From Pocillopora verrucosa (taxonomy: Eukaryota > Cnidaria > Anthozoa > Scleractinia > Pocilloporidae), in contig NC_089325.1 of NCBI RefSeq assembly GCF_036669915.1, positions 62,001-126,000 of the forward strand: a stretch of 64,000 nucleotides of DNA. The letters run 5' to 3'. Positions 12,867 through 13,117 of this stretch are shown here, piece by piece (positions within the stretch are counted from its first letter, which is position 1; every line of letters starts with the position of its first letter). The notes under the pieces were generated by a model. The model worked only from the letters and a program-made list of their open reading frames with translations. It was not told where the DNA came from and did not search any database. Both the position numbers and the translations under genes were made by a program.

Positions 12867-12914
12867 ACTGCAAACAGTTAAATGTTTCGGCCCTCTGGGC
12901 CTCATCAGTGCAGT
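12867..12914 (-). ncRNA. Type I hammerhead ribozyme
   Basis: Read on the minus strand, every element of a hammerhead is present. Stem I 5' strand ACTGCA (12914-12909) is followed by core CTGATGA (12908-12902). Stem II is GGCCC-AGA-GGGCC, five base pairs (12901-12889). Core GAAA lies at 12888-12885. A short stem III of CA/TG plus the A-U pair encloses a six-base loop (12884-12874), and H17 is the U at 12873. The strand after the predicted cleavage point between 12873 and 12872 is TGCAGT (12872-12867), exactly complementary to the stem I 5' strand. The cleavage triplet is GUU, allowed under the NUH rule. Family knowledge: such short-stem-III hammerheads occur in Penelope-like elements and retrozymes of animals. 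Not tested for activity. Confidence 0.85.
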
Positions 12915-13117
12915 GCTGATGCTAGGATGGAGGTAAGACCATATAGCCACCCCAAGTGATCTCACATATGTGGGATCATCTAAGCCATGCCAGAGTGCTC
13001 AAACTAGAAAAACTAGCGAGCATGCATAATGCTAGCAGCAATGACTCATCCTAGTAGAGTGCTCAATTTGGACATGAAAGCAAAGCTTTGTATGCCAAAG
13101 AGCTATATCTAACTGCA
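12873..13117 (-). mobile_element. Retrozyme-like 245-nt hammerhead unit between TA microsatellites
   Basis: The post-cleavage sequence TGCAGTTAG occurs twice on the minus strand, beginning at 13117 and at 12872. The interval between the two predicted 5' ends is 245 nt and holds one hammerhead. This is the arrangement expected for one genomic monomer of a self-cleaving circular RNA retroelement. Both sides are TA microsatellites, which may be the insertion target. The unit has no open frame, so it would be non-autonomous. It could instead be the terminal part of a Penelope-like element, but no Penelope reverse transcriptase is seen nearby. Confidence 0.65.

Follow-up and report, generated by a model that had tools for sequence, protein, structure and literature searches.

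According to our analysis, the locus described here very probably represents the insertion of one solo unit of a non-LTR retrozyme of the metazoan type. It lies in the window, i.e., the whole 64-kb stretch of Pocillopora verrucosa DNA that was analysed, in which the letters and stems of a hammerhead ribozyme, matching ends spaced 245 nt apart, a recurring unit body and flanking TA tracts are seen directly. The unit most likely fits a known class, the self-cutting circular RNAs known from corals and other animals. By itself, the solo insertion is one more case of this known class of animal retroelements and is largely expected.

The hammerhead ribozyme

12867-12914, minus strand: type I hammerhead ribozyme, from one strand of stem I to the other, by core reading and descriptor (Rfam HH9 score below gathering)
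12873/12872, minus strand: predicted cleavage site GUU^UGCAGU, read from the hammerhead core

Read on the minus strand from 12914 to 12867, the ribozyme is ACUGCA-CUGAUGA-GGCCC-AGA-GGGCC-GAAA-CA-UUUAAC-UGUU^UGCAGU. Stems I to III were assigned, and the cut was placed after the GUU triplet, according to the usual hammerhead numbering. Stem I comprises 6 bp between ACTGCA (12914-12909) and TGCAGT (12872-12867), and the CTGATGA core box occupies 12908-12902. Stem II comprises 5 bp (GGCCC/GGGCC, 12901-12897 and 12893-12889) with only AGA as hammerhead loop 2 between its arms, the GAAA core box lies at 12888-12885, and stem III comprises 3 bp (ACA/TGT; A-U, C-G, A-U) closed by the six-base loop TTTAAC. 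The core bases are intact and all 14 Watson-Crick stem pairs are present. This bears out the sequence-only reading, which had claimed that the conserved core bases are in place on the minus strand, that stems I and II are perfect and that a short stem III carries a six-base loop.

A descriptor was written post hoc and required shorter stems than those observed (Watson-Crick pairs: at least 4 in stem I, at least 3 in stem II and at least 2 in stem III). On both strands of the window it matched once, at 12914-12867, and found no other hammerhead there; 150 dinucleotide-preserving shuffles of this 64-kb sequence yielded 0 matches.

The covariance search with the Rfam hammerhead models that the sequence-only reading had proposed as a check went against it, none of the models matching the ribozyme at gathering score. 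The clan's best hammerhead model here, RF02275 (Hammerhead_HH9), aligned over its full model length with 20.7 bits (E 0.038 with 1.4 kb searched), short of the gathering score of 52, so that the ribozyme is a non-member by the Rfam rule. A relaxed Rfam search of the whole window returned 32 matches with E of at most 2, and a hammerhead was absent among them. Three short stretches around the ribozyme had fold z-scores of -1.8, -1.5 and -2.3, with 11/200, 18/200 and 7/200 shuffles folding as well, respectively. A ribozyme-like fold was the best one in one of these three stretches, the other two preferring a different fold. In our judgement, the complete core, the perfect stems and the matching unit ends count for more than these weak Rfam and fold scores.

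The 245-nt unit

12873-13117, minus strand: 245-nt unit, from the predicted cut to the upstream copy of TGCAGTTAG (end repeat spacing)
13109-13117, minus strand: upstream copy of TGCAGTTAG, the monomer 5' end (exact repeat)
12864-12872, minus strand: downstream copy of TGCAGTTAG, the overhang beyond the cut (exact repeat)

The nine bases after the predicted cut had been claimed to recur 245 nt upstream, and this is what is found, the two copies at 13117-13109 and 12872-12864 starting exactly 245 nt apart. The unit has a G+C content of 45% and contains no stop-to-stop frame of at least 70 aa, a coding region thus being absent at that cut-off. Direct repeats in 12700-13300 consist of the TA tracts and short repeats; the unit ends share 9 nt, and there is no LTR. 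Within the unit, AGAGTGCTCAA occurs twice, 64 nt apart (12992-13002 and 13056-13066), and this pair is possibly a partial internal duplication.

The RNA of the unit is predicted to pair strongly with itself. Its circular fold has an energy of -78.3 kcal/mol, compared with -63.8 +/- 4.9 (sd) for 300 shuffles, two of which were as low, and of 160 plus-strand stretches of 245 nt drawn from the window, 3 fold as low as the unit circle. In the opposite polarity, the unit folds at -75.9 kcal/mol, which is almost equal, and the stability of the fold is therefore no pointer to the ribozyme strand.

Metazoan non-LTR retrozymes have been described as units of ~170-400 nt with type I hammerheads, a G+C content below 50% and no LTR, which occur in tandem and are expressed as circular RNA (PMC7229834). 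The complete type I core is likewise found in our unit, and its length and G+C content fall within the published ranges (170-400 nt, below 50%). For the coral Acropora millepora, the same source names two main retrozyme monomers of around 225 and 245 bp. Compared by this published description, the unit resembles them in its type I hammerhead, 245-nt length, G+C content below 50%, absence of a coding region and predicted stable self-paired circle. The arrangement differs: the Acropora millepora retrozymes are in tandem, canonical coral units being given as dimers up to 62-mers (PMC7229834), whereas our locus holds one unit.

Recurrence of the unit body

32947-33091, plus strand: diverged second copy of the unit body, without ribozyme (blastn and local alignment)

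The unit body is a repeat, though its second copy is without the ribozyme and does not have both ends in common with the unit. This copy, which is partial, is the one further genomic copy of the unit seen within the 64-kb window, and it sits ~20 kb from the unit on the opposite strand. A blastn search of the unit against the window aligned 107 nt at 76% (E 1e-16) and 35 nt at 91% (E 1.7e-7). The two copies were compared by local alignment; a MAFFT alignment put the first part of the second copy wrongly. According to the local alignment, the second copy covers monomer positions 9-194 minus stretches of 39 and 3 nt, and the absent 39-nt stretch contains the AGAGTGCTCAA occurrence at 13056-13066. 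A 20-nt indel is described in PMC7229834, in contrast to the two stretches absent here. The second copy starts at GATATAGC after TATATATT, which is also TA-rich, and its ends differ from those of the 245-nt unit.

The possibility of a decayed ribozyme in the second copy found no support: aligned to the ribozyme, the 60 nt that follow this copy downstream have a score of 14, a value reached by 621 of 1000 random window stretches. A profile of both copies detected no third copy in the window above the inclusion threshold; its strong E-value for the second copy is circular, because that copy is part of the profile. Short matches to the unit end at 1795-1810 and 21738-21753 lie in two similar segments of the window, in which the descriptor finds no hammerhead, and were discarded as chance.

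Exact patterns of the unit body had 0 matches in viral_contigs (two patterns) and 0 in genome_contigs (viral and prokaryote records), an absence that says little because the scanned collections are viral and prokaryotic. The ribozyme core pattern with the same stem II was matched by 19 stretches of viral contigs. With E allowed up to 1, the unit aligned to just one of these 19, along 29 nt of core; the stretches were taken to share the motif without being kin. Among the contigs found by this pattern, one from IMG/VR (L007) carries two matches to the hammerhead-core pattern in the same orientation, 1039 nt apart (696-723 and 1735-1762).

Flanking TA tracts and probable insertion site

12819-12862, no strand: TA microsatellite, one flank of the unit (repeat scan)
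13119-13182, no strand: TA microsatellite, other flank of the unit (repeat scan)
12823-12843, plus strand: candidate target-site duplication AATATATGTAAATATATATAT, copy 1 (identical to 13162-13182 over 21 nt)
13162-13182, plus strand: candidate target-site duplication AATATATGTAAATATATATAT, copy 2 (21-nt exact match, same orientation)

The position of the unit between two TA microsatellites, as claimed from the sequence alone, was confirmed, and these tracts hold the only pure TA runs of at least 10 nt in the window (12834-12862, 13119-13139 and 13173-13182, all flanking the unit). Beyond 12800-13200, 265 bases of the window fall in TATATA or ATATAT. Both window copies of the unit reach TA-rich DNA within 8 nt of the edge near the monomer 5' end. 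The 21-nt match is uncertain as a target-site duplication because AATATATGTAAATATATATAT is of low complexity, and the TA tracts could instead represent later growth after insertion. Hammerhead repeats of Nematostella vectensis have 15-bp target-site duplications (PMC4918200). By this description they resemble our locus in the animal type I hammerhead and the long target-site duplication, but the candidate here is 21 nt of low-complexity TA and uncertain.

For a Penelope-like element, the published account reports a protein that preferentially cut AT-rich DNA, insertion in vitro that did not require hammerhead cleavage, and reverse transcription that began at a site non-homologous to the cut DNA (PMC11167929). 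If the unit was moved by such an element, the last point is at odds with simple TA priming. The location of the unit junctions in TA repeats is relevant to the question of which reverse transcriptase moves such units.

Origin of the locus

The sequence-only reading had interpreted the locus as the footprint of one monomer of a circular RNA. This interpretation gains from the hammerhead, the unit, the second copy of the body and the match in size, and it loses in one respect, as a one-unit locus could not itself release a 245-nt monomer. One hammerhead and one unit are present, and a tandem of two or more units was not found at the locus. From this layout, a transcript through the locus could be cut only once, at 12873/12872, and since the upstream edge at 13117 has no preceding ribozyme, the 245-nt monomer could not be released. 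With one ribozyme and one unit, the locus is therefore filed by descent, as a solo retrozyme-derived insertion, and not as a circle-producing locus; it is more plausibly derived from a circular RNA than a source of one. The active ribozyme fold is predicted to be less stable than an alternative one (see below), so that the copy at this locus may cut poorly.

We posit that a retrozyme circle would be copied about once round by the reverse transcriptase of another element, for which a Penelope-like element, as named in PMC7229834, is a candidate source. The copied DNA would then enter at an AT-rich nick, here in a TA microsatellite. Transcription, cleavage, circularization, reverse transcription from the circle and tandem copies elsewhere would all be parts of this history. 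Instead of about one lap of reverse transcription round the circle, the unit might alternatively derive from a piece of a longer precursor. Counted against the retrozyme origin are the missing gathering score in Rfam, the single unit, and the second copy with its other ends and without ribozyme.

We regard it as unlikely that the hammerhead is part of a fragment of a Penelope-like element (pseudo-LTR), in which case the 245-nt unit would belong to that element and not to a retrozyme. Penelope-like elements do bear hammerhead motifs and occur in tandem or partial tandem arrangement, according to a review of the field (PMC7761336) and PMC11167929, and their hammerheads are like ours in the link to mobile elements and in the AT-rich cleavage sites (PMC11167929, PMC7761336). 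However, they are described as atypical minimal variants (PMC7229834, PMC7761336), whereas the stems found here are longer, with 6, 5 and 3 bp. Moreover, none of the eight stop-to-stop frames of at least 70 aa at 10.2-14.5 kb matched Pfam at E 0.01, a scan that misses short or broken frames, and a reverse transcriptase with GIY-YIG was not found beside the unit among them.

A further alternative is a repeat that is non-mobile or dead, for example a satellite monomer or SINE-like unit, whose leftover ribozyme is inactive today. While the solo unit, the diverged second copy without ribozyme, the alternative fold favoured over the ribozyme and the weak Rfam score are all in line with such a remnant, neither the conserved core nor any of the 14 stem pairs has been lost. 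This favours a recent or selected copy, and we consider a dead repeat quite improbable. A chance resemblance to a hammerhead, with which the Rfam matches under threshold and the only modestly better folding of the short stretches relative to shuffles would agree, is hardly credible, considering that 0 of 150 shuffles matched at thresholds looser than the observed stems and that the unit ends are repeated at 245 nt.

Other features of the window

Judged by their translations, three similar TRIM-type genes lie on the minus strand of the window at 7734-10034, 26679-28929 and 44900-47152, the middle one being split into two overlapping frames. Six frames of the window were taken for a Pfam domain scan; RING, B-box, filamin and NHL matches were obtained for the first TRIM-type gene and one frame of the middle gene. 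Minisatellites of AGGGGTAAAAGGGAA occur near two of the TRIM-type genes (6737-7065 and 44050-44189), and a third is located at 52671-53137. Fragments with RVT_1 (reverse transcriptase) and zf-RVT (RT-associated zinc-binding domain) matches are present on the plus strand at 24030-24515 and 30076-30552. Together, the domain matches of the scanned frames point to an animal genome.

A palindromic tandem array of AAGATCTTACAAG-type units extends over 16153-16603, and units resembling them are present at 20959-21263 and at 21371-21445. Rfam returned many microRNA-like matches at 16.2-16.6 kb, which fall within the palindromic array and are probably spurious. Two near-identical segments are found at ~1700-1890 and ~21640-21840, the former preceded by a frame with a DUF6570 match (1370-1753). 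The pair may stem from duplication of a mobile element or of part of a gene.

A predicted end-closing helix

12874-12883, minus strand: predicted end-closing helix, 3' arm, pairing with 13116-13107 in the released monomer
13107-13116, minus strand: predicted end-closing helix, 5' arm (fold of the released monomer)

The less expected feature of the unit is its end-closing helix. The ends of the released monomer are predicted, from this one sequence, to form a helix of 9-10 bp whose UU|UG loop contains the cut site. The ten pairs have probabilities of 0.86-1.0 in the linear fold, and in the circular fold nine of these pairs reach 0.86-0.999; the cut site is the centre of the palindrome UAACUGUU^UGCAGUUA. 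In the monomer folds, stem I of the ribozyme has a probability of 0.0 as printed, and stem II remains formed. In 300,000 trials with the ribozyme letters of both ends fixed and all other letters randomised, an end helix of at least 10 bp arose in 0.4% and one of at least 9 bp in 1.1%, a statistic that was framed after the helix had been seen.

Imposing the ribozyme fold raised the predicted energy from -78.3 to -69.4 kcal/mol in the circle, from -93.5 to -85.4 kcal/mol in the read-through transcript and from -85.3 to -76.0 kcal/mol in the transcript from 13117 to 12864. The penalty for the active ribozyme amounts to 8.1-9.3 kcal/mol in the longer transcripts and the circle and to 4.1-5.2 kcal/mol in the shorter transcripts (starts 12930 to 13050); the shortest one (start 12910), a stretch without all of stem I, was left out of this range. 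Tertiary contacts favour the ribozyme and are absent from these fold energies.

We posit that the end helix would hide the ribozyme and might also offer the two ends to a tRNA ligase. A wider and more doubtful proposal, which we put forward only tentatively, is that the unit is a two-state RNA, combining an end-zipping switch that would aid ligation and shut off the ribozyme with an AUAUA motif that would choose the TA insertion site. In the precursor, UGCAGU would pair with ACUGCA and the ribozyme would cut. After both cuts, UGCAGU would change its partner and the monomer ends would zip, with the broken ends in the UU|UG loop. The zipped ends would go to the tRNA ligase, and the ribozyme would stay off in the closed circle. 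Pairing between TA repeats and AUAUA (monomer positions 10-14) could then determine the insertion site.

Most metazoan circles are described as leaving the ribozyme free, for which some block beyond self-pairing must exist (PMC7229834). In contrast, the circle of our unit is predicted to mask its ribozyme, and the block would here lie in the RNA itself. The end helix could be likened to an engineered ligation stem: guide RNAs that bear such a stem and are cut by ribozymes are reported to be closed by RTCB (PMC11994451). Should other units also have the end helix, it would suggest what stops the ribozyme from reopening the circle, a question left open in the account of PMC7229834, and it would bear on why tRNA ligase closes such RNAs far better than the ribozyme itself.
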